Source: a virus. Taken from it: DNA of 37,292 nucleotides. The translations under genes were made by a program, and so were the position numbers. The notes beneath the pieces are model-generated. The model saw only the letters and a list, made by a program, of their open reading frames with translations, had not been told where the DNA came from and made no database searches. Where the stretch lies: positions 1 to 37,292 of IMG/VR virus record IMGVR_UViG_3300010296_000023, one strand, 5' to 3'. Shown here one piece after another: positions 17,443 to 35,884 of the stretch. The stretch's first letter is position 1. Every line of letters starts with the position of its first letter.

Positions 17443-20400
17443 ATGGCAAATACTTTAACACAAACCCTATTTGAAACCAAATACAAAGATGATTTCAAAG
17501 ACAGTGATCACTATCACAGAATTTTGTTTAATAGTGGTAAGGTTCTCCAAGCAAGAGAGTTAACCCAACTACAAACTATTATCCAAAAACAAATCGAACG
17601 TTTTGGTACAAATATTTTTAAGGAAGGTGGCGCCGTTCTAGGTGGTGGTATTACACTTAACACCAGATACGAATTTGTAAAACTAGATACAACAACGAAT
17701 ACCTTACCGACAACACCCAATTCATTATTAGGGGTTACAATTACTGGTGCTACTTCCAGTATTATTGGTAAAATTGTAGAGGTCGTTCCTGCTGCAGGTG
17801 GTGACCCTGCCACAATCTATGTTGAATACACAAATACATCTGCTGGAGTTGCTGGAGCAACCACACCTATTAGATTCACTCCTGGTGAAAATCTTACAAA
17901 TTCAGTTACCCCTTTAACAGTACAATTAACAAATACCACAGCCAATCCTGCTATGGGTACTGGTACAAAGGCCTCAACAAATGAAGGTGTATTTTTTACC
18001 CAAGGCCATTTCGTTCAGGCAGATGCTCAAAGTAAAATTATTGCAAAATATTCATCAACTCCTTCACTTAATATTGGATTTAGAGTAGCCCAAAGAATTT
18101 TTACAGTGGATGATGATCAAGGGTTATATGATAATCAAGGTGCGTTACCAAATCTGACTGCGCCAGGTGCTGACCGTTATCGTATTGACATGACACTTGC
18201 ACTTGAATCAGAAGTTGATTCTGATGAAATATTTGTATTTTATGCAAAAACTCAAAATGGTAAGGTTATTGAAACCGTATCAACTGATGAATCATATAAT
18301 AAAATTGAAGACTTTAGTGCTACTCGTATTAAGGAAATTAATGGTGATTTTATTAAGCGACCATTTAAAATTAATTATGAACAACATCCTACAGATTCAG
18401 CAAATAAATATTCATTAAGAGTTTCACCTGGTCTTATATACCTAAATGGCTATAGAAATGAATATAATGGTTATTCATCTCTTGACGTAAATCGTGCTGA
18501 CGATACAGAAACAATTACCAATGATGTGTTATCAATTGGTATTGGTAACTATCTGCTTTGTGATAGTTCACTTGGTGTTCCAAATATTGATGAGTTTGAA
18601 CAATATAATCTAAAAGATGGTTACCGTAATAGCGGATCCACAATTGGTACTGCCCGAGTTAAATCCGTTGAAGAGGATGGAGCAAATATCCGTTATTATC
18701 TAATGGATATCCAAATGAATTCTGGTCAAGATTTCCGTAAGGTCCGTTCAATCGCTGTCGATGCCACAAACTATGCAAATCCAATTTTGGAAAATTCAAA
18801 TGCTGTATTAAAAGATAAAGCCAATAATACACTTCTTTTCGGATTCACACATCCTCGAGTTCAAGGTATTGTAAATACATCATATAATGTTTTGAGAAGG
18901 GATACAAGAACTACTGACGGTTCTGGTAATGCATCATTGCCTACACTATCAGGTGGTGAATTATATGCCGATACAACAGATTGGATTATTGCAAGAACAG
19001 ATACTGGAGCATTAATTACTCCAGCAATTGCACTATCTGGTGGTGGTACTGGCGCGTCTATTTCCGGTGCCCCTGCATCAACCAACCTTGAAATAATTTA
19101 CAAAAAATCTGTAAATGCAACTGCAAGAACTAAAACGATTACAAATACAACTGTAACTACTACGGTAACCACACCGGCAACTGGTGCACCATATGTTTCC
19201 CTCGGTAAGGCAGATATTACAGGTATTGAACGGGTTCGTTTGGTTGATTCAGACGGTATGGATATCCAGGCAAGATTTGTTCTTGATAATGGTCAAAGAG
19301 ATAATTTTTATGGTGTTGGCCGTTTGGTTCTTAAAGGTAATCAATCAGCGCCACCAGGTAATGTATTTGTTCGGTTTAATTATTACGCACATGGCGCATC
19401 TGGTGATTTCTTTGCTCCATCATCGTATCCATCACCATATAATAAAATTCCAAAATATACTGCAACGTCAGGTAGAACATATGATTTAAAGAATGTATTT
19501 GATTTCCGTTCTAGAAAGAATGATGCAGGTACTAACTTTAGTGCAGCAACTGCAAAATATAATCCACTTCCATCAAATACATCCCTCGTGACAGCAGATG
19601 TGACTTATTATCTACCTCGTTACGATAAACTGATTGCAACAAATCCGTTACAGTATCTTGAAGGGACTTCAAGCTTTAACCCACAATTCCCTGAAACACC
19701 AGAAGGTGCATTGGAATTATACCAAATTAAAATGAATGCAGGTTCCATTTCAGATAGTGATATGGAAATGAGAAAGGTTGAGGCAAAAGGGTTTACGATG
19801 AAAGACCTATCCAGACTTGAAGATAGACTGGATAATCTGGAAGAGGTAACTGCATTAAGTCTCCTTGAAATAGATCTTAAAAATTTCTCTGTATTGGATT
19901 CAAATGGTTTGGATCGTACCAAATCTGGTTTCCTTGTAGATAACTTTGTTGATCACCAATCATCTGATATTGACAATGTTGAATATCGTGCTTCTGTTGA
20001 TCCACAAAATAAAATATTACGGCCGCTATTTTCTGAAGATGAAGTAAGATTGATTTATGATTCAGGTCAATCAACTAATACTATTCTAAAAGGTGATAAT
20101 GTTTATATGAAATATGATCATGTATCATTTATCAAAAACGATATTGCCTCTGGTACTGAAAATATTAATCCATTTGCTGTTATTACCAACGAGGGTTATT
20201 CAGAATTATCTCCTTCCTCAGATCACTGGAAAGAAACCAAGGTTCGTCATACCAAAGTGGTAAGTGGTGGTACTCGTTTGGATAACCGTTCAAACCGTCT
20301 CTTTGGTAACTGGGGATGGAACTGGGGTGGTATTGCAGTAGGAACAAATGTAACTGGTGCAAGAACTGCTCAAGAAGGCAACTTCAATGTGACGCGGGTA

Positions 20401-22533
20401 AATCGTGTTGTATCTGAACAAACCATTCGTGAAGTAATTGACCAAAAAGTTGTTGATGTTGCATTAATCCCGTTCATGCGCTCTATTAAAATGGCATTCC
20501 GTGTGCAAGGTTTGAAACCTAATACACGTCATTATCCTTTCTTTGATGGTACATCGGTAGCGGATTGGGTTGACGGTACTGCATCATTTAGCCGTATTGG
20601 GGCAAGTAATGTTGCAGTAGGACGTCAACACAATCGTGCAACAAACCATCCGGATACTAGTTCGGCAGCTGATCGTGTATTGACATCAGATGCTGCAGGT
20701 AAAATTGAAGGTACCTTCTTTGTTCCAAATACCAATGCCATTCGGTTTAGGACTGGCACACGGGCATTCGAATTAATGGATGTGACCGGTGGTAATTCAG
20801 AATTTGCCACATCATTCTCAAAAGGTTATTTTGATGCAAATGGTGTACTTGAAACAGTAGACCGTACTGTAAAAGCTACTCGTCAGATTGCAATCAGATC
20901 TGTTGTAACTGCTCGGTCACGTATTAGTCCACCATTCCAAAATGATGATGATAAGAATACACCGGAACCAAATCCAAATGATCCGTTGGCACAATCATTC
21001 TTTGTAAGTAAACCAAATGGTGTGTTTATCACTAAGGTTAAAATTTACTTTAAAACAAAAGATGCCAATATTCCAGTTCAACTGCAGATCAGACCTATGA
21101 TTGCAGGTGTTCCAGATAATATCCCAGTTCCTGGTGCAGTAAAATTCTTAAATCCAGTAAATGTAAATGTATCAAATGATTCATTGACTGCCACAGAGTT
21201 TGAATTTGATGAGCCAGTATTCCTTAGTGGATTAACCGAATACGCAATTGTTCTTCTTGCTCAGTCAGTAGATTATAATGTCTATGTAGCTGAAACAGAA
21301 AAGTTTGAGGTTGGTTCAACTGCTCGTAAAGTTGCAAAACAACCTACACTTGGATCCCTATTCCTATCTCAGAACGGTTCAACCTGGACTCCGGCACAAA
21401 ATAAGGATATGAAATTTGATCTTCTAGCAGCTAAATTCAAGAATACATCTGCAGAAGTTATCCTTGAAAATCCTAAAATTCCTCTTGAATTATTACCTCA
21501 AGATCCATTTGAAGTAGACTCAGGTTCAACAACTGTTAAAGTTTCTCAGCCAAATCATGGTTTCATTGCCGGTGATACGGTTGTAATTAGTGGTTTGGAT
21601 AGTTCACAGTCATTTGGTAATGGTATGACTGGTAAGGGTCTAAATGGTTCTAGAACTATTGTGGCAGTAGATGAAAACTTCTATACGATCACTGCCGATA
21701 GTGCTGCAACTGATTCATCTACCTTTGGTGGTCTTGATGGACTTGCCACTCAAAATATCAAATATGAGATTTTATCTCCTAAGATTCAAACATTAATTCC
21801 TAAAAATACTGATATCACAATTGATGCAAAACTTACTGAAGGTAAATCTCTCGCTGGTAATGAAACACAATATACCAAGGCTGGATCATATACAAGTATT
21901 ATTCTGAACGAAGATAATTACTTCCTAACACCAAAGGTTCTTGCAAGTCACGAACGTGAGGCAAATGCCATGAGTGGTGCTAAATCAGCAACATTTAAAC
22001 TGAATCTGACTACGCAAGATAGTGATGTGGCTCCGGTAATCGATTTACAAAGAACTGGTATGTGGATGTTCCATAATGAAATTGATTTCCAGGATTCTGC
22101 TGGTTCAACTGGTGTCCTAATAAATGCCAATAGAAATAATCCAATCGACTATGCAGATGAAACTGATCCAAATGGTGGTTCACACTTATCAAAGCATATC
22201 GTAAAGCCAGTTATTCTTGAATCACCATCAGTAGGTGTTAAGGTATTACTATCTGCAAATAAACCATCAGTTGCTGAATTTGATGTCTACTATAAAGTTG
22301 CAACTGAAGATCAAAACTTTGATGATATGAATTGGACATACATTGCTTCTGAGGAACAAGTACAGAGTGATGAAAATCCATCCGTATTTAGAGATTACAC
22401 TTTCTTGGTTGGTGGTACCGGTGGATTTGTTGATCCGTTTGATAAGTTTATTCTTAAAATTGTAATGAAATCAAGAAGCAGTGCCTTGGTTCCTTCCTTT
22501 AAGGATTTAAGAGTAATTGCATTGGCGGTATAA
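17443..22533 (+). CDS. Giant DUF4815-type virion structural protein
   Basis: A 1696-aa protein, the largest gene here. The first 70 residues have 'SDHYHRILFNSGKVLQAREL', 'TQLQTIIQKQIERFGTNIF' and 'KEGGAVLGGG', the hallmark of the DUF4815 family in marine T4-like phages. The body is beta-rich, with fibre-like segments and a helical patch near 'KDLSRLEDRLDNLEEVTALS' (about residues 787-806). The section 'RVNRVVSEQTIREVIDQKVV' followed by 'DVALIPFMRSIKMAFRVQGL' (about 985-1030) is another recognisable core. The C-terminus resembles a carbohydrate-binding or jelly-roll region ('PLAQSFFVSKPNGVFITKVK' near 1180). It may be the wedge-arm protein replacing T4 gp7 or gp10, but that is inference from size and place. 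An AAGGGA site overlaps the gp8 stop. Confidence 0.72.
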   Translation: MANTLTQTLFETKYKDDFKDSDHYHRILFNSGKVLQARELTQLQTIIQKQIERFGTNIFKEGGAVLGGGITLNTRYEFVKLDTTTNTLPTTPNSLLGVTITGATSSIIGKIVEVVPAAGGDPATIYVEYTNTSAGVAGATTPIRFTPGENLTNSVTPLTVQLTNTTANPAMGTGTKASTNEGVFFTQGHFVQADAQSKIIAKYSSTPSLNIGFRVAQRIFTVDDDQGLYDNQGALPNLTAPGADRYRIDMTLALESEVDSDEIFVFYAKTQNGKVIETVSTDESYNKIEDFSATRIKEINGDFIKRPFKINYEQHPTDSANKYSLRVSPGLIYLNGYRNEYNGYSSLDVNRADDTETITNDVLSIGIGNYLLCDSSLGVPNIDEFEQYNLKDGYRNSGSTIGTARVKSVEEDGANIRYYLMDIQMNSGQDFRKVRSIAVDATNYANPILENSNAVLKDKANNTLLFGFTHPRVQGIVNTSYNVLRRDTRTTDGSGNASLPTLSGGELYADTTDWIIARTDTGALITPAIALSGGGTGASISGAPASTNLEIIYKKSVNATARTKTITNTTVTTTVTTPATGAPYVSLGKADITGIERVRLVDSDGMDIQARFVLDNGQRDNFYGVGRLVLKGNQSAPPGNVFVRFNYYAHGASGDFFAPSSYPSPYNKIPKYTATSGRTYDLKNVFDFRSRKNDAGTNFSAATAKYNPLPSNTSLVTADVTYYLPRYDKLIATNPLQYLEGTSSFNPQFPETPEGALELYQIKMNAGSISDSDMEMRKVEAKGFTMKDLSRLEDRLDNLEEVTALSLLEIDLKNFSVLDSNGLDRTKSGFLVDNFVDHQSSDIDNVEYRASVDPQNKILRPLFSEDEVRLIYDSGQSTNTILKGDNVYMKYDHVSFIKNDIASGTENINPFAVITNEGYSELSPSSDHWKETKVRHTKVVSGGTRLDNRSNRLFGNWGWNWGGIAVGTNVTGARTAQEGNFNVTRVNRVVSEQTIREVIDQKVVDVALIPFMRSIKMAFRVQGLKPNTRHYPFFDGTSVADWVDGTASFSRIGASNVAVGRQHNRATNHPDTSSAADRVLTSDAAGKIEGTFFVPNTNAIRFRTGTRAFELMDVTGGNSEFATSFSKGYFDANGVLETVDRTVKATRQIAIRSVVTARSRISPPFQNDDDKNTPEPNPNDPLAQSFFVSKPNGVFITKVKIYFKTKDANIPVQLQIRPMIAGVPDNIPVPGAVKFLNPVNVNVSNDSLTATEFEFDEPVFLSGLTEYAIVLLAQSVDYNVYVAETEKFEVGSTARKVAKQPTLGSLFLSQNGSTWTPAQNKDMKFDLLAAKFKNTSAEVILENPKIPLELLPQDPFEVDSGSTTVKVSQPNHGFIAGDTVVISGLDSSQSFGNGMTGKGLNGSRTIVAVDENFYTITADSAATDSSTFGGLDGLATQNIKYEILSPKIQTLIPKNTDITIDAKLTEGKSLAGNETQYTKAGSYTSIILNEDNYFLTPKVLASHEREANAMSGAKSATFKLNLTTQDSDVAPVIDLQRTGMWMFHNEIDFQDSAGSTGVLINANRNNPIDYADETDPNGGSHLSKHIVKPVILESPSVGVKVLLSANKPSVAEFDVYYKVATEDQNFDDMNWTYIASEEQVQSDENPSVFRDYTFLVGGTGGFVDPFDKFILKIVMKSRSSALVPSFKDLRVIALAV

Positions 22534-25852: not shown

Positions 25853-25871
25853 TAAGTAATTATTTAAAGTG

Positions 25872-27065
25872 ATGAAATGTTTAGTTCCCGACACGGGTAT
25901 CACCATCAATCCGATTGGTGAAATTGTATTATGTTGTGCTGGCGATAATGTGGCGATTGAGCACATTAGTAATATTGAAAATGTAAGTGATTTTTTCAAT
26001 TCAAAAATATATAATGAAATCAGAGATAAATTTAGAAAAAAAGAATTTCCAAAGCAATGCAATGTCTGCAAGGTTCATTGGAAAGCAGGCAGAATTGCAA
26101 GATTCGATTCTTATAATAGATTCGATTTTCCTACCTACAAAGAAGACCTCTCTAACTCAATTATTCCTATAAGATTTTTAGAAATTACTACTAGCAATAT
26201 TTGTAATCAAATGTGCGTTACATGTTCTGGTAAATACTCTTCTAAATGGGCGCCGGCTGAAGCATATGCAGTTCAAGTTGGACTCGATTGGAGAAACGAG
26301 AATCATAAGTTTCATACAAAACAGTACAAAATGACTGATGAAGATGTAGAAAAGATTTTACAGATAGTTCCTAGCTTACAACACCTAACTATTAAAGGTG
26401 GTGAACCATTCGCAGATCCAAACAATATAAAGATACTACAGAAGCTTGCGGATACAAATCCTAAGTGTCGGGTAGAGATTTGTACAAACTTTCAACTAGT
26501 AACTCAATCAGTAATTGAGTTATTACATAAGATTGATGAAGTGCACATCCAAGCAAGTATAGACGGTGTCGGTTCTCTTTACAATTGGATTAGAGGTGGT
26601 AACTTTGAAAAGACTGTCAATAATATAAACCGTTACTATAAATATGCTAAACGTAAGATAGTGATTGTCTCTACGGTATCGATTTACAACTGGATGCATC
26701 TACCAGAACTTATAGATTACTGGAAAAATATAGAAGGTGTTGAAAGAATTAGTATGGCAAATATCGTGACCTTTCCAAAATATTGTTCTCCATTATATCT
26801 ACCAGTCGACCAGATAGAAAAAGGAAAGAAAAACTTCTTTGACTATCTTGAGAGTTATGACTATGTAGAAAAACATGATATCTACAAGACAAACAATCTT
26901 ATGGTAAGTGGAATTGGTAATATGAGAAGTATAGAGCTGACAACAGATCCTAACGTAAAAGAGATAAGAAGAAGAATGTTAAAGTGGATAGACTTTTGCT
27001 TGATTGCTAGAATGAATGATGAAGATATATTTGAACTTGCACCGCACTTGAAAGAAATATTTTAA
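25872..27065 (+). CDS. Radical SAM enzyme with N-terminal SPASM/twitch-like cysteine module
   Basis: A 397-aa protein counted from the ATG at 25872; a GTG one codon earlier is less likely. The radical SAM cluster motif is C111-x3-C115-x2-C118 (ICNQMCVTC), with the SAM-contact motif GGEPF at 176-180. The first 70 residues look like a SPASM/twitch half: 'CLVPDTGITINPIGEIVLCC', 'HISNIENVSDFFNS' and 'EFPKQCNVC', giving C3, C21, C22, C63 and C66 for an auxiliary iron-sulfur cluster. SPASM modules normally follow the radical SAM core, so the order here is unusual. Such enzymes often modify peptides or sugars; the substrate is unknown. It faces the minus-strand glycosyltransferase cluster, 15 bases away. 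No ribosome-binding site stands out, and no late promoter lies directly upstream. Confidence 0.85.
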   Translation: MKCLVPDTGITINPIGEIVLCCAGDNVAIEHISNIENVSDFFNSKIYNEIRDKFRKKEFPKQCNVCKVHWKAGRIARFDSYNRFDFPTYKEDLSNSIIPIRFLEITTSNICNQMCVTCSGKYSSKWAPAEAYAVQVGLDWRNENHKFHTKQYKMTDEDVEKILQIVPSLQHLTIKGGEPFADPNNIKILQKLADTNPKCRVEICTNFQLVTQSVIELLHKIDEVHIQASIDGVGSLYNWIRGGNFEKTVNNINRYYKYAKRKIVIVSTVSIYNWMHLPELIDYWKNIEGVERISMANIVTFPKYCSPLYLPVDQIEKGKKNFFDYLESYDYVEKHDIYKTNNLMVSGIGNMRSIELTTDPNVKEIRRRMLKWIDFCLIARMNDEDIFELAPHLKEIF

Positions 27066-27080
27066 TTTGGCCACAGCATA

Positions 27081-27842
27081 TTATATTTTAAAATCCTTAT
27101 TTACTTGATGTTGAAAATAACATGCATCAGTAGAATATTTTATAAAATCATCTAGTATATAATTCCAAGGTTGTCCGATATTATTATTTGGTATTTTATA
27201 TTTTTCCAACATGTAAGTTAAAAAGACTTCGTTATTTCTTTTCCAACATGAACTCATTTCCTCAGGGTATAGATTATCTTCAATCGCATCAATAAATCTT
27301 TTTTCAGCTTCAGGTAATCTTTCAGAAAATTTTAGACTTTCGGCTGCTGTTTTATTCATACAGAACACACCAGTATTTGCTATATTATCGTTTCCTGTTA
27401 TATCATCCAAAAGTAACATTGCCTTTTTGCAAGATAGTTTAGCATATCTACCCATACCCGAAAAATTATTAAATCTGAGATTAGGTTTTACCCAACGTGA
27501 TACACCAATTAATAATTGATATACCGAAACATTATCTAAATTAAATGAATCAAATATAATCTTTTGTGTTTTTGGTATTACATCTAGATCCAAATAAAGA
27601 ACCTCATCATAGTGTTCCAATAATTTTTCTGTTTGTAGTATTTTATAAAATTGAACATCCACATAATTATTTTTGTCAGGTGTAAATAATTCATAATCTG
27701 AATTGCATATATGTGCATATTCTTTTTGTTTTTCAATAAGTCGGTCTTTGTAAAGATTAAATAATTTTGTTTTTTTATCTGATGCAGAGGGATGATCATC
27801 TACCAAGTCTGACCAAACACTAAAGATTATTCTTTTTGACAT
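27081..27842 (-). CDS. Glycosyltransferase-like protein (GT-A fold), last gene of the cluster
   Basis: A 253-aa protein when started at the ATG at 27842, which has a GGAAAG site five bases upstream; an earlier ATG at 27854 adds four residues. Motifs: 'KIIFSVW'-like opening strand (RIIFSVWSDLV), 'FYKILQTEKLLEHYDEVLYL', the metal/nucleotide-sugar DxD in 'LYLDLDVIP' (D85, D87) and 'NTGVFCMN'. 'GQPWNYILDDF' and a C-terminal 'CYFQHQVNK' are further family-like features; the His near the end may be a metal ligand. It resembles GT8-like or capsule-type transferases and is a paralogue of the upstream gene. It overlaps that gene's end by 23 bases. Donor and acceptor sugars are unknown. Confidence 0.72.
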   Translation of the reverse strand: MSKRIIFSVWSDLVDDHPSASDKKTKLFNLYKDRLIEKQKEYAHICNSDYELFTPDKNNYVDVQFYKILQTEKLLEHYDEVLYLDLDVIPKTQKIIFDSFNLDNVSVYQLLIGVSRWVKPNLRFNNFSGMGRYAKLSCKKAMLLLDDITGNDNIANTGVFCMNKTAAESLKFSERLPEAEKRFIDAIEDNLYPEEMSSCWKRNNEVFLTYMLEKYKIPNNNIGQPWNYILDDFIKYSTDACYFQHQVNKDFKI

Positions 27843-28623
27843 ATCTTTCCACATATTTAAAATTTTTGTTTATAACGTGTATAAGTTTGGGGTTACCTTT
27901 TATAGACTTATTATTTATTGTAAGAGCATAATGCCAATCCTCATCTAAATTTAAAAGGTTGACTTTATTTTTGATCATTTTATAACTGAATAAGGTTTCA
28001 TTATCATACCCAAACATGTTTGAAATAATATCAGGAAACATATCATCTTCAGTTACCAATTCATGCATATAATCTAAGTCATTTTCAAAGTTGTCAAAGT
28101 AGGCTAATTTTTTCAATTGTTCATTATTTGCTATAACGATTCCTGTATTATAAACATCATTTTCACCATCCATACCATTATAAATTAACATTGCCTTTGT
28201 ATTCCAATATTTTGCGGTTGGTGATCTTATTGTGGATAAGGCCTTACCTTCCCATTTGGTCATACGCCATTCAAATTCTTTCATATAGGATTCATGATTT
28301 ACCCGAACTGCTATTCCGTTTGATATATCAATATCAAATACACTTTCAGTAGTTACAGGAACAACATCAAAGTCAAAGTAGGCAACATTATCATATTTCT
28401 TGCTGTTTTCATATAGCAAATGTATTTTGTAAAAGTTTATTATATTATACTCATTGATATATGGTCTGTCCTTAAATGTTTCTTTATATTCTTTGTACTG
28501 ATCATCATCACCATATAGCTTATAATCTACTCCAATTGTTTGAGCATATTTCTCTTGTCTTTGTTTTAAAAAATCATAATGATCTTTTAGGTTTTCTGTT
28601 TCTTTATAAATTGAAAATATCAT
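27820..28623 (-). CDS. Glycosyltransferase-like protein (GT-A fold), paralogue of the next gene
   Basis: A 267-aa protein: 'IFSIYKETENLKDHYDF' opening, 'QEKYAQTIGVDYKLYGDDDQ', 'FYKIHLLYENSKKYDNVAYF', DxD in 'AYFDFDVVP' (D84, D86), 'VYNTGIVIANNEQLKKL', and 'PKLIHVINKNFKYV' at the end with a conserved His. The same order of motifs is found in the 27081-27842 gene, so the two probably arose by duplication and diverged strongly. The start overlaps the methyltransferase-like stop (ATGA), so translation is coupled. It is predicted cytoplasmic with no membrane segment. It would transfer a sugar to an unknown acceptor, such as a phage protein or a glycan. Confidence 0.72.
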   Translation of the reverse strand: MIFSIYKETENLKDHYDFLKQRQEKYAQTIGVDYKLYGDDDQYKEYKETFKDRPYINEYNIINFYKIHLLYENSKKYDNVAYFDFDVVPVTTESVFDIDISNGIAVRVNHESYMKEFEWRMTKWEGKALSTIRSPTAKYWNTKAMLIYNGMDGENDVYNTGIVIANNEQLKKLAYFDNFENDLDYMHELVTEDDMFPDIISNMFGYDNETLFSYKMIKNKVNLLNLDEDWHYALTINNKSIKGNPKLIHVINKNFKYVERYVKKNNL

Positions 28624-29249
28624 TTACCAATAACCATAAACCTATCATATTCTTTATTCCAGTTTTTTGTGCCAGAGTAATATATTTCCCTTAATGGTAA
28701 TTCTGATATAAAATGGTCAAGCGAGTCATGACAGTTTATGTGGCTATCTATATCATAATAATTATTTGACTGTAAACAAACAATTGCATCTTTATCTTTT
28801 TTTATTAACATTTCATTAATATCATCTTGTTCAATATGTTCACATGCCGTGCATATAATAATTTTATTTTTATTATTCCATGCCTCATCATTTACAAATG
28901 TGAGGCCATTATCTGTAATAAAATGCACCTTATCATGTATTACTAATTTTTCACCATATTCCCTACAGACTGGATCCAAATCATAATTCCATACGTCTCC
29001 ATCAAACTGCAATTCTTTTAATATATATGAAAGCAATCCATACCACCCACCAATTATTATACATGCGTCTTTATTTTTTAAATATGGTTGAAGCTCCTTT
29101 ACTGCCCACTCTTTATTTTCAAACTGTCCTTTACTTAAGGAATCAAGTATATCCTTCAGGCGAAAGATATCTATATCCTTTACATATTTTGATTTAATAT
29201 AAATTTCAGATAAAAGACTGACCACTCGATCAAAGAATAATTGTTGCAT
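28620..29249 (-). CDS. Class I SAM-dependent methyltransferase-like protein
   Basis: A 209-aa protein. After a helical N-terminus comes a Rossmann-type core: 'DACIIIGGWYGLLSYILKEL' (about residues 61-80, SAM-binding loop with GGWYG), 'VWNYDLDPVCREYG' (86-99, acidic residue D90 at the end of the second strand), 'VHFITDNG' and 'KIIICTACEHI' (fourth strand). This is the class I methyltransferase order, similar to small proteins often seen with phage glycosyltransferases. The catalytic target cannot be told. A non-methylating nucleotide-binding role is possible because the glycine loop is not standard GxGxG. It overlaps the preceding gene by 20 bases and the next by four. Confidence 0.62.
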   Translation of the reverse strand: MQQLFFDRVVSLLSEIYIKSKYVKDIDIFRLKDILDSLSKGQFENKEWAVKELQPYLKNKDACIIIGGWYGLLSYILKELQFDGDVWNYDLDPVCREYGEKLVIHDKVHFITDNGLTFVNDEAWNNKNKIIICTACEHIEQDDINEMLIKKDKDAIVCLQSNNYYDIDSHINCHDSLDHFISELPLREIYYSGTKNWNKEYDRFMVIGK

Positions 29250-29769
29250 TTATACCACTATCAAATGTTTTATAGTTAAATTTCTGATCCCAAATATATC
29301 TGTCAATGCCGGCATATTTTCTCGTATTATAATCTATATTCCTACTAAACACATCCCAATATTCTGTGTTTCTGCCAGAAGTCCAGGCCATAATTGAACT
29401 GTTTAATTTTGTTTCGTATGCATGAGATTCCCAATATAAATCATTCTTCCATTTATCCTTAATAAATGTTGGATATCTCCAATCTATAGATTCAATATAA
29501 GGAAAAGGGTTATTAATGATGTCGATATCGAGATCAAACAGGACGCAACGATTATCCAATATAAAGTCGTGTCTATATACATGAAGTTTATTCCACCATT
29601 TTGTAAGTTTAGGTTTCTTTGGTATGTCTATACAATCTATTATAACATCTTTTGCGTCTTCTGTAAAACAAAAAATAGGATAATCTGCATAGTGCATTAA
29701 TTTTTCCGCTTGTCGATTCACGTCATTTGCAGAATATTTTTTGCCATGTTTTAATAGTATTACGTTCAT
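29230..29769 (-). CDS. Glycosyltransferase-like protein, apparently short at the C-terminus
   Basis: A 179-aa protein and the first gene of the minus-strand cluster. Motifs: 'YSANDVNRQAEKLMHY' (about residues 12-27), 'IFCFTED', 'TKWWNKLHVYR' and a DxD-type 'VLFDLDIDIINNPFP' (D79-D83), then 'NSSIMAWTSG' and 'YAGIDRYIWDQK'. This is the pattern of a GT-A family seen in marine phages, where the protein normally continues well past the IDRYI segment. Here it stops about 20 residues later at 29230, so it may be truncated or a short variant. No clear ribosome-binding site is seen. It starts 38 bases from the divergently oriented gene at 29807. Confidence 0.62.
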   Translation of the reverse strand: MNVILLKHGKKYSANDVNRQAEKLMHYADYPIFCFTEDAKDVIIDCIDIPKKPKLTKWWNKLHVYRHDFILDNRCVLFDLDIDIINNPFPYIESIDWRYPTFIKDKWKNDLYWESHAYETKLNSSIMAWTSGRNTEYWDVFSRNIDYNTRKYAGIDRYIWDQKFNYKTFDSGINATIIL

Positions 29770-32002: not shown

Positions 32003-35000
32003 ATGGCAACACCAAAAGTATTACTCAAAAGATCCTCAGTTATAGGCCGCGTACCTGGCGCTAGTGATTTGGATTATGGTGAATTAGCAATTAACTTTGC
32101 TGATGGTAAAATATATTATAAAGATGATTCAAATAATATAAAGGCGTTTATAGATTCTGCCAGGGTTCAAGAGATTGCAGATGCTGTTGAGGTTGTGGCT
32201 GATGCCCAATTAGATTCCGGTGAAACCACTATTCTTGTCACTTCGTTGATTGATTCAAACTATGTACAATCACGGACAAATGAGGCATATCTTGCCACGA
32301 TTATTGATTCAGATTATGTGCAGGCACGTCAAGCGGATATCTTTCGTGACTCTGCCTTTATCACAAATACAATTGCACAAAATTTAGATCTTGGTGAATT
32401 TATACTTGGACTTGATCCTGGCGTAGACCCTGTACAAAATCCTTCTAACTTTGTCACAATTTTGGCTGCAAAACTTACTGCAGGTAATGGTATTATATTA
32501 AGTGGTGGAACAGAATGGACTGATAATATAACCATTACTGCTGACGTCATAGATTCTTCTACTGTTGAAGCAATTGTTGATTCTGCATATATTCAAGCAA
32601 GGCAAAATTCAGTTGGTGAGGCAGGGGTTGATTCTGCTGGTGTGGTTACTATTATTGGTGCAACTGTTGATAGTACATACGTCCAGACAAGACAGTCTGC
32701 GCAGGACTTTGCATATGGTTCACTAACTGGTGCACCAACAATACCATCCTTTGGTACAGATTATATTGATTCTGCTACAGCAAGTGCAATTATTACTGCT
32801 GATGTGACTAAGTCTTTTGTGGATGCACTTGGAACTAATGCTGATACTCTTGATGGATTTGAAGGTACACATTACCTCCAATATTCCAATTTAACTGGGG
32901 CTCCTATCACACAAGATTCTGCTATGATTTATCGTTATACGATAGATTCAGCAAGAACAACTCAGCTAGTGGATTCTGCCTATGTAAGAGCAAGAGTAAG
33001 AACAAACCAGGATCTGAGAACTAGCGATACTGTTGAATTTTCTGGAATGACCATTTCTGGTGATTTCAATGTTACAGGTACTACAACATCTGTTAATACT
33101 ATTGTTTATACCACTAATGACCCATTGATTCACCTTGCTGATAGTAACGAACAATCAGATTTGGTTGATATTGGTCATATCGGTCACTATTATGGTAATG
33201 GTCAAAGACGGCATACTGGTGTATTCCGTGATGCATCAAATGAAGAATACTATATCTTCAATAATATGGTTGATTCTGCGTTTGATTCGGTGCTTCCACC
33301 AAACGTAATTAATCGAAATGCTACAGACTTCCAACTTTCAACTCTTAATGTCGGAACCCTACGTGGTGTGTATGCTGGGTTTGATTCTGACTTCAATGCA
33401 AAATCAACTACTAACCTGAGTGAAGGTTCAAACCTCTATTATACAAAGGCCCGGGCTGATTCAGATATTGCTGCATCACTAAATGATTCAACAAATACTG
33501 TTTCAATTACAATTAATAATACCATTACAGATCAAGTTGATTCTGCCTATGTTCTTGACCGTGTGGCAGAAGCACCGTTCCTGGATTCAACTACTGTTCT
33601 AGGAGTTATTGATCAAACATATGTACGTAATAATCAAATTAAATATAATACATCAGACTTTACCGATAGTGCATTTGTGACAGGGTTACCTGTTTCCACA
33701 TTTACAAATGATGCAAATTATCTCGATTCAACCACTGTAACTGGTGTTATTAGTCAAACGTATGTTCGTAATAACCAAATCCAATATAATACCTCGGACT
33801 TTGCTGATAGTGCATTTGTAACTGGCCAAGGTTACTTAACTACAGCAACTACTACTGCGCTGGTTGATTCGGCGTATGTGCAACTTCGTCAAGTAGATGG
33901 TAATAAATCCTTAAATGGATTAAAGGCCATTCAGTTTATTCACGACTCTGATGCAGCAACATATACTGTTACAGTTGCCTCTAAGGATGCATCACATCGT
34001 TATGAAGGCACAGGTTCTGCCAGTGGTTACAAGATTGATGGAATATTCTCACCAACAATTGTAATGAATCCAGGTAATACATATCGGTTTGATATGTCGG
34101 ATGCCACAAATAGTTCCCATCCTATAAATTTCTATTATGATGCAGCAAAGACAACTCAGTACACAACCAATGTTTTAAATAATTACGCAAGTAAAGCCGC
34201 TGGTGTTTCTGGTTCATATGTCGAAATTACTGTAACGGATGATACGCCTTCTGTATTACACTATCAGTGTGGTAATCATGGTTATATGGGTGGAATGATA
34301 CAGACACAAACCCGTAACCTAACTGGTTTTACAACAGATGATTTAACCGAAGGATCAACCAATCTATATTATACAAATACTAGAGTTTCAACCTTAGTTG
34401 ATGCAACATACGTACAGGATCGTCAAACAAAATATAATACTTCCGATTTTGCTGATAGTGCATTTGTAACTGCTCAAATAGCTACTATTGATTCGGCCTA
34501 TGTACAAGCAAGGCAGTCCGGTGGTGAGATTACCATTCAAGAGGAAGGCACTCCTTTATCAAATGCTGCAACTACTTTGAACTTTGTTGGTACTGGGGTT
34601 ACTGCCACTGGTACTGGCACTACCAAGACAATTACCATTTCAGGTGGTGGTAGTGGAACAGTAGATAGTGCCGATATTATTGCAATCGTGGATTCAAACT
34701 ACGTACAGGCAAGGCAATTAGTTACCGAAGGTGTTACGGAACTTGATCAGACAACTTTCTATTATACTGCCGCGGCAGGTGATTCAACATTTAGTGGCAA
34801 TGATGATTTTGGTAACACATTAGATTATTCAGCGGGTAAAGTTCAGGTTTTCATTAACGGCATTTTACAGGTTAAAACATCTGACTTTACTGCAAATAAT
34901 GGTACTAGTGTTTCATTGGTTGAGGCCGCTGATAGTGGTGATATTATTGCAATTGAGACAATTACTGGTAATACCGCAAATACTCGGTTACAACTTGATA

Positions 35001-35884
35001 CCTATGTATATACTGCTGATTCTGGTGATAATAACTTTGGTGGAGCCGATGATAATAATAAGACATTAGATTATTCCGCCGGTAAAATACAAGTATTCCT
35101 TAATGGTATTTTACTCCTTGATTCAGATGATTATACAGCAACCAATGGTCTTAATATCTTAACAGATTCACTTGACAGTGGTGACGTTTTAACTATTCAA
35201 CAATTTACTGGCACAAACATCGGTATTGATTCAACACAAACTCGTCAATTAATTGATTCTGCATATATTCAGGCAAGACAATCAGCCTCAGGAATTACTG
35301 TTCAAGAGGAAGGTGTATCACTATCAACTGCTGGTACAACTCTAAACTTTGTGGGTAGTTCTGTAACTGCATCTGGAACAGGTGCAACAAAAACCATAAC
35401 GATTACGGCAGCATCTGGAGGTACGGATTCTGCTGCTACGATTGCTTTGATTGATGATCAATTGGCCATATTCTCCGTTGGTGATTTGGTAGGTGCCGAT
35501 GGTAATCCAGGTGATATGCTTGTAAGTGATGGTGACGGAACTGCAAGTTGGACAGGTAATGGAGCTCTTACAGTTGAATTTAAAGTAAATTATGATTCAC
35601 TTGGTGTAATATCTACTGTAACAGATTTGCCTACAGGATTTACTCATGACAGTACATCAGGAAATACGATTATTGTTAGCCATAATACTGGACGCTCAGT
35701 GAAAGATATTACATATAATTCCTACGTCAGTGGAACACTAAAACTAAGAAGACCTTCTGCAGATAGTGCTGATATAGTAACCTATAGTGTTGCAGATCGT
35801 TTAAATAAATTTACAGCAAATGTCAGTCAAGCAACCACAGGTGCAGATGCAGATCAATATGCTTGGGTAAATATCACATTCTAA
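32003..35884 (+). CDS. Giant repeat fibre protein with a cupredoxin-like copper-site domain
   Basis: A 1293-aa protein. The head 'VLLKRSSVIGRVPGASDLDY' followed by 'GELAINFADGKIYYKDD' is a common fibre start. Thirteen units of the type [IVL][IV]DSxYVQxRQ are spread over residues about 83-1093. '[17 protein letters not shown]' is shared with the previous gene. Residues about 653-768 form a cupredoxin-like domain: 'NPGNTYRFDMSDATNSSHPI' with H706, and 'LHYQCGNHGYMGGMIQ' with C756, H759 and M762, the His-Cys-His-Met set of type 1 copper sites. Two module pairs are repeated near the end. It probably forms a long fibre. Start support is AGGA about eight bases upstream. Confidence 0.75.
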   Translation: MATPKVLLKRSSVIGRVPGASDLDYGELAINFADGKIYYKDDSNNIKAFIDSARVQEIADAVEVVADAQLDSGETTILVTSLIDSNYVQSRTNEAYLATIIDSDYVQARQADIFRDSAFITNTIAQNLDLGEFILGLDPGVDPVQNPSNFVTILAAKLTAGNGIILSGGTEWTDNITITADVIDSSTVEAIVDSAYIQARQNSVGEAGVDSAGVVTIIGATVDSTYVQTRQSAQDFAYGSLTGAPTIPSFGTDYIDSATASAIITADVTKSFVDALGTNADTLDGFEGTHYLQYSNLTGAPITQDSAMIYRYTIDSARTTQLVDSAYVRARVRTNQDLRTSDTVEFSGMTISGDFNVTGTTTSVNTIVYTTNDPLIHLADSNEQSDLVDIGHIGHYYGNGQRRHTGVFRDASNEEYYIFNNMVDSAFDSVLPPNVINRNATDFQLSTLNVGTLRGVYAGFDSDFNAKSTTNLSEGSNLYYTKARADSDIAASLNDSTNTVSITINNTITDQVDSAYVLDRVAEAPFLDSTTVLGVIDQTYVRNNQIKYNTSDFTDSAFVTGLPVSTFTNDANYLDSTTVTGVISQTYVRNNQIQYNTSDFADSAFVTGQGYLTTATTTALVDSAYVQLRQVDGNKSLNGLKAIQFIHDSDAATYTVTVASKDASHRYEGTGSASGYKIDGIFSPTIVMNPGNTYRFDMSDATNSSHPINFYYDAAKTTQYTTNVLNNYASKAAGVSGSYVEITVTDDTPSVLHYQCGNHGYMGGMIQTQTRNLTGFTTDDLTEGSTNLYYTNTRVSTLVDATYVQDRQTKYNTSDFADSAFVTAQIATIDSAYVQARQSGGEITIQEEGTPLSNAATTLNFVGTGVTATGTGTTKTITISGGGSGTVDSADIIAIVDSNYVQARQLVTEGVTELDQTTFYYTAAAGDSTFSGNDDFGNTLDYSAGKVQVFINGILQVKTSDFTANNGTSVSLVEAADSGDIIAIETITGNTANTRLQLDTYVYTADSGDNNFGGADDNNKTLDYSAGKIQVFLNGILLLDSDDYTATNGLNILTDSLDSGDVLTIQQFTGTNIGIDSTQTRQLIDSAYIQARQSASGITVQEEGVSLSTAGTTLNFVGSSVTASGTGATKTITITAASGGTDSAATIALIDDQLAIFSVGDLVGADGNPGDMLVSDGDGTASWTGNGALTVEFKVNYDSLGVISTVTDLPTGFTHDSTSGNTIIVSHNTGRSVKDITYNSYVSGTLKLRRPSADSADIVTYSVADRLNKFTANVSQATTGADADQYAWVNITF
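32246..35282 (+). repeat. DSxYVQxRQ coding repeats (13 copies, interspersed)
   Basis: Copies read IDSNYVQSR, IDSDYVQARQ, VDSAYIQARQ, VDSTYVQTRQ, VDSAYVRARV, VDSAYVLDRV, IDQTYVRNNQ, ISQTYVRNNQ, VDSAYVQLRQ, VDATYVQDRQ, IDSAYVQARQ, VDSNYVQARQ and IDSAYIQARQ. Spacing is irregular because other modules lie between them. Three copies of YNTSDF[TA]DSAFVT are mixed in. Confidence 0.8.

Follow-up and report, generated by a model that had tools for sequence, protein, structure and literature searches.

A Predicted Cupredoxin-Fold Domain with a Conserved Candidate Copper Site in the Tail Fibre of a T4-like Phage

Introduction

Cupredoxins have so far been known as electron carriers or as parts of enzymes. 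Amicyanin, a free electron carrier of the periplasm, presents its ligands in the order His...Cys-x2-His-x2-Met on a beta-sandwich fold, and the cupredoxin domains of copper nitrite reductases, two-domain laccases and rusticyanin serve enzymes or electron transfer. The type-1 copper of such proteins is buried and tightly held. Other beta-sandwich domains of phage fibres are purely structural. The distal subunit of the T4 long tail fibre, gp37, is a trimer.

Metal has also been proposed as a component of phage fibres, in the form of iron bound by HxH motifs, including those of T4 gp37 (PMC11705849). No report of a cupredoxin, blue copper or plastocyanin-like domain in phage virions was found in the literature searched, which consisted largely of papers outside subscription, and the same holds for giant viruses. 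Fold and site are familiar, but in a phage fibre, a setting for which we found no such report. Here we describe this domain, its predicted fold, the strict conservation of its four candidate ligands and its fibre context.

Results and Discussion

The Fibre and Its Genomic Setting

The fibre is encoded in the window, by which we mean the whole 37,292-nucleotide stretch of DNA analyzed (a 37-kb record of a marine T4-like phage, IMG/VR IMGVR_UViG_3300010296_000023; table 1). T4-like genes for the tail tube cap, hub/lysozyme, gp6, a gp9-like protein and gp8 are found in the window, and residues 1-46 of the fibre are 55.3% identical to T4 gp37 (tblastn, E 2e-5). In phage Mosig, gp8 is followed by VrlC, and the DUF4815/phrog_358 protein of the window occupies the VrlC position. 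In pelagimyophages, the interval from VrlC to gp14 is a host recognition cluster (PMC7029224); if that description applies here, the gene order suggests that the VrlC-like gene marks the start of such a cluster and that the fibre gene, downstream of it, lies within. Among the tail and fibre genes there is also one for a Radical SAM/SPASM protein (25869-27065, plus strand), and four minus-strand ORFs without Pfam match are located between fibre-region genes (27081-29769).

Table 1. Features of the fibre gene and of the upstream baseplate gene in the window
Feature	Position	Strand	Evidence
VrlC-like baseplate protein, 1696 aa (DUF4815, phrog_358)	17443..22533	+	Family matches; gene order as in Mosig; upstream of the fibre
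Tail fibre protein carrying the predicted cupredoxin-fold domain, 1293 aa	32003..35884	+	ORF; N-terminus like T4 gp37; phrog_30742 match
N-terminus like T4 gp37 (long tail fibre, distal subunit)	32003..32140	+	tblastn
Predicted cupredoxin-fold domain, residues 631-772	33893..34318	+	AlphaFold2 pLDDT 92.5, pTM 0.84; Foldseek and VIA matches
H706, first His of the candidate site, in NSSHPINF	34118..34120	+	98.6% conserved in ligand-blind representatives
C756, candidate thiolate ligand, sole Cys of the fibre	34268..34270	+	Sequence; ligand-blind profile
H759, second His of the candidate site	34277..34279	+	Sequence; ligand-blind profile
M762, candidate axial Met	34286..34288	+	97% conserved in ligand-blind representatives
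C-terminal segment, residues 1151-1293	35453..35881	+	Also strongly conserved between the window fibre and L001

The 1,293 residues of the fibre include 1 Cys, 12 His and 9 Met. Identity to the nearest relative (L001) is 85% within the domain and 62% over the rest of the fibre; in the C-terminal segment, 117 of 143 aligned residues are identical (counted in 50-residue blocks).

The probable location of the fibre in the host-recognition region, together with the iron precedent in phage fibres (PMC11705849), would be consistent with a metal Trojan horse, in which bound copper is shown to a metal-uptake receptor of the host as in the iron-based Ferrojan Horse idea. The window fibre resembles the HxH iron sites of T4 gp37 and alterophage R22Y in that a metal would reside in a phage tail fibre, and its N-terminus is like that of gp37, but the metal chemistry and the fold differ. 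No HxH motif, such as that of the gp37 tip, is present anywhere in the window fibre, and the HxH iron reading was rejected on this basis. Moreover, a buried and tightly held copper does not lend itself well to presentation to a receptor, and copies of the domain are also found in very large baseplate proteins. Altogether, we regard the Trojan horse as quite improbable.

Family Matches and Predicted Fold

Residues 631-772 match the tail fiber family phrog_30742 (E 5.5e-41). Among Pfam and NCBIfam, no curated model matched the domain above its cut-off, and there was no match of the window domain to PF00127 (Copper-bind, plastocyanin/azurin); a relative from cyanophage S-CAM4 (L067) reached 19.1 bits against Copper-bind, below the cut-off of 21.2. 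Weak sequence-profile matches were mostly to copper proteins (copper nitrite reductase, pseudoazurin, multicopper oxidase), with chance matches mixed in, and their alignments place H706 on an HP-type His and C756 and H759 on a YxC..H motif. Matches below the curated cut-off to PF25489 (At5g54830-like domain) were obtained for 9 of 65 relatives (best E 1.6e-4) and for a 274-aa protein of a gammaproteobacterial MAG (L157, 5887-6708), which has the same motif (KHDLYF...YYQCQNHPYMGG). Judging from these sequence likenesses, cellular relatives of the domain may exist.

The AlphaFold2 model of the 142-aa segment, built on an alignment with 65 relatives, has nine strands between segment residues 22 and 138. 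In segment numbering, H706 lies just before strand 78-81 and C756 ends strand 121-126, while H759 and M762 occupy the loop between the C756 strand and strand 134-138, which in the model is the cupredoxin arrangement. When the domain was modeled together with its fibre flanks on a three-row alignment, the pLDDT was 33 and the result uninformative, indicating that the confident model of the domain owes its quality to the 65-row alignment.

The five best PDB matches of the model (Foldseek, E<0.001) were four rusticyanin entries and one copper nitrite reductase. Taken more broadly, the strongest PDB matches were to rusticyanin, three-domain copper nitrite reductase and two-domain laccases, with E values from 2e-4 to 1e-2 and a probability of about 1. 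In the VIA comparison, every match listed was to a protein with a cupredoxin domain, the best of them aligning over 100 residues with a Z of 8.9 and an rmsd of 3.0. The first His and the Cys/His motif of the type-1 domains of copper nitrite reductases (2dv6, 6hbe), of two-domain laccases and of rusticyanin, which gave the best structural and weak profile matches, are in register with those of the phage domain, but identity to it is only about 10-18%, and no catalytic type-2 or type-3 copper ligands were identified in the phage domain. Because Foldseek TM-scores against solved cupredoxins are just about 0.4 (0.39-0.46), the kinship to them is remote. The model thus presents residues 631-772 as a discrete domain and a remote member of the cupredoxin fold superfamily (Greek-key beta sandwich).

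The preliminary description had claimed a cupredoxin-like site in a beta-rich domain flanked by fibre repeats, with trimer stabilisation, redox sensing or binding to a host copper site as possible functions. The structural picture is largely borne out: nine strands are predicted, repeats of the DSAYVQARQ/NTSDF type are found on either side of the domain, and the confident model has blue-copper proteins as its best structural matches, with the candidate ligands placed along the strands as in cupredoxins.

The same fold was matched by three giant-virus proteins of the BFVD named "Beta-sandwich" (A0A481YWX9, A0A481Z7Q7 and A0A481Z6J5), which come from Marseillevirus LCMAC201 and Pithovirus LCPAC302/304 and show 20-21% identity.

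Conservation of the Four Residues

The ORF translation has H706, C756, H759 and M762 exactly where they had been placed, in His-Cys-His-Met (HCHM) order, with the last three all within HYQCGNHGYMGG. Their loop, CGNHGYM, had been described as shorter than that of plastocyanin, and its C-x2-H-x2-M spacing is indeed that of amicyanin; amicyanins were recovered by a query with a CSIHPYM-type loop. Over the whole domain, no significant sequence match to amicyanin emerged, and the phage domain differs from this free periplasmic protein in being built into a long fibre.

If only the raw motif of one sequence were considered, the four residues could have come together by chance in a beta-rich fibre domain with no relation to cupredoxins. 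The pattern H-x(30-70)-C-x2-H-x2-M occurred in none of 20,000 shuffles of the fibre's own composition, and the conservation in distant phages and the matches to cupredoxin folds point the same way. We consider chance to be ruled out for all practical purposes.

Since the contig scans, from which the profiled loci partly come, had used motif patterns, a ligand-blind profile was built by masking the columns of the four ligands, and its 150 complete copies were reduced to representatives below 80% or below 60% identity. HCHM was found in 70 of 72 representatives at the first threshold and in 29 of 30 at the second, a set whose columns have a median conservation of 43%. Among annotated phages, which were found by BLAST and not by motif, the copies aligned over the whole site have HCHM, with S-CREM1 as the sole exception. 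The S-CREM1 locus has no C-x2-H-x2-M (NIVDMDEDGLGGG) but keeps the first His, and the related S-H38 has the full set; judged by their sequences, the two form a natural loss-of-site pair.

A family of second copies was found in a long structural protein (L003-L005, L008, L011, L014, L016, L029, L038, L040, L041, L043, L045, L048, L049, L051, L053-L055 and L057). In 6 of them the His, the Cys and the second His are kept jointly (Met replaced in 5), and in 14 all are gone, which may reflect few evolutionary events. Second copies have an extra segment that separates the half with the first His from the half with the Cys, and some of them combine His-Cys-His with a Glu in place of the Met, while others have lost every ligand jointly. 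Random loss of ligands, the pattern at odds with the site as first described, was thus not seen among homologues. The site Cys is the sole Cys in 48 of 144 domain-bearing proteins.

These data bear on whether the fold might be free of copper in vivo, with the four residues serving core packing, or holding Zn or another metal, or forming a thiol adduct. The purely structural beta-sandwich domains of other fibres offer a precedent, and the second copies that persist without ligands indicate that the fold stands without the site. On the other hand, His-Cys-His(-Met) is kept or lost jointly and is among the most conserved columns, compared with the typical 43%, and packing needs no Cys in a protein that otherwise lacks it. 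A copper-free domain therefore seems unlikely to us, and copper binding probable.

Distribution among Phages

The domain occurs in 110 phage records, almost all of them from marine cyanophages and from Pelagibacter and Methylophilales phages, and no fewer than 585 viral-contig stretches contain it. Its carriers are tail fibres, a tail spike, gp7-type baseplate proteins and other virion proteins, and as many as five copies occur in one genome, distributed over four reading frames in P-SSM2 and three in P-HM1. It is also present in P-GSP1, a T7-like Prochlorococcus phage, and in Baldr, a 39-kb pelagiphage. The proteins of phrog_30742 and the fibres of P-SSM2, Bellamy, P-TIM68, Mosig and Melnitz share with the window fibre a domain with HCHM (43-57% identity), but its position in the fibre varies. 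In the feature tables inspected for those fibres copper is unmentioned, and the annotation is just tail fibre, predicted or hypothetical protein. The conservation of the ligands in very distant marine phages suggests that many ocean phages may carry copper on their host-recognition parts.

In a redox reading, a blue-copper centre cycling between Cu(I) and Cu(II) would sense the redox state of the cell surface, for instance where the host is photosynthetic or respiring, or would pass electrons to or from one of the host's surface proteins, and so trigger a change in conformation or binding. The full type-1 ligand set is kept, including the axial Met, as in electron-transfer cupredoxins, and many carriers of the domain infect photosynthetic hosts. 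However, phages of Pelagibacter and Methylophilales are carriers as well, so that no link with photosynthesis is required, and a function specific to photosynthesis was discarded. We know of no redox partner protein for the phage domain, which also argues against this reading, and its occurrence in structural proteins of many kinds is more in line with a general-purpose module than with a dedicated switch. Ligand conservation itself would fit redox roles and a structural clamp equally well. We think a redox centre unlikely on balance.

A Copper-Clamped Accessory Domain

The explanation that we favour, and hold to be fairly probable as a whole, is that of a copper-holding cupredoxin domain in a distal-type long tail fibre, with the role of a structural clamp. 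Residues 631-772 would bind one copper ion per chain through H706, C756, H759 and M762, giving three coppers per fibre if it is a trimer like T4 gp37. The metal would lock the loops of the site into a rigid shape that is competent for binding or resistant to proteases, and would carry no electrons. The role, which we infer more weakly than the copper itself, is most likely that of an accessory or adhesion domain, clamped by copper, within the host-recognition apparatus, in keeping with the location that gene order suggests for the fibre. We take the domain to be a mobile module that has spread among marine T4-like phages and some other marine phages via their tail-fibre, tail-spike and baseplate proteins. 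Its copper could come from the host during assembly, or from the lysate and seawater. Since folding of phage proteins takes place in the cytoplasm, which has very little free copper, the loading of the site is hard to explain.

A broader proposal is that many marine T4-like phages bear true type-1 copper centres on tail fibres and baseplates, with several in each virion, and that the presence or redox state of copper serves them in host recognition or in triggering infection; we see this as possible but doubtful. If true, the repeated occurrence of a conserved type-1 site in cyanophage and pelagiphage tail fibres and baseplates would represent a new place for cupredoxin chemistry, virions would constitute a small copper pool in seawater, and trace-metal supply and infection would be linked in a directly testable way. 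As to annotation, a domain name is now possible for part of many proteins listed only as "tail fiber" or "hypothetical".
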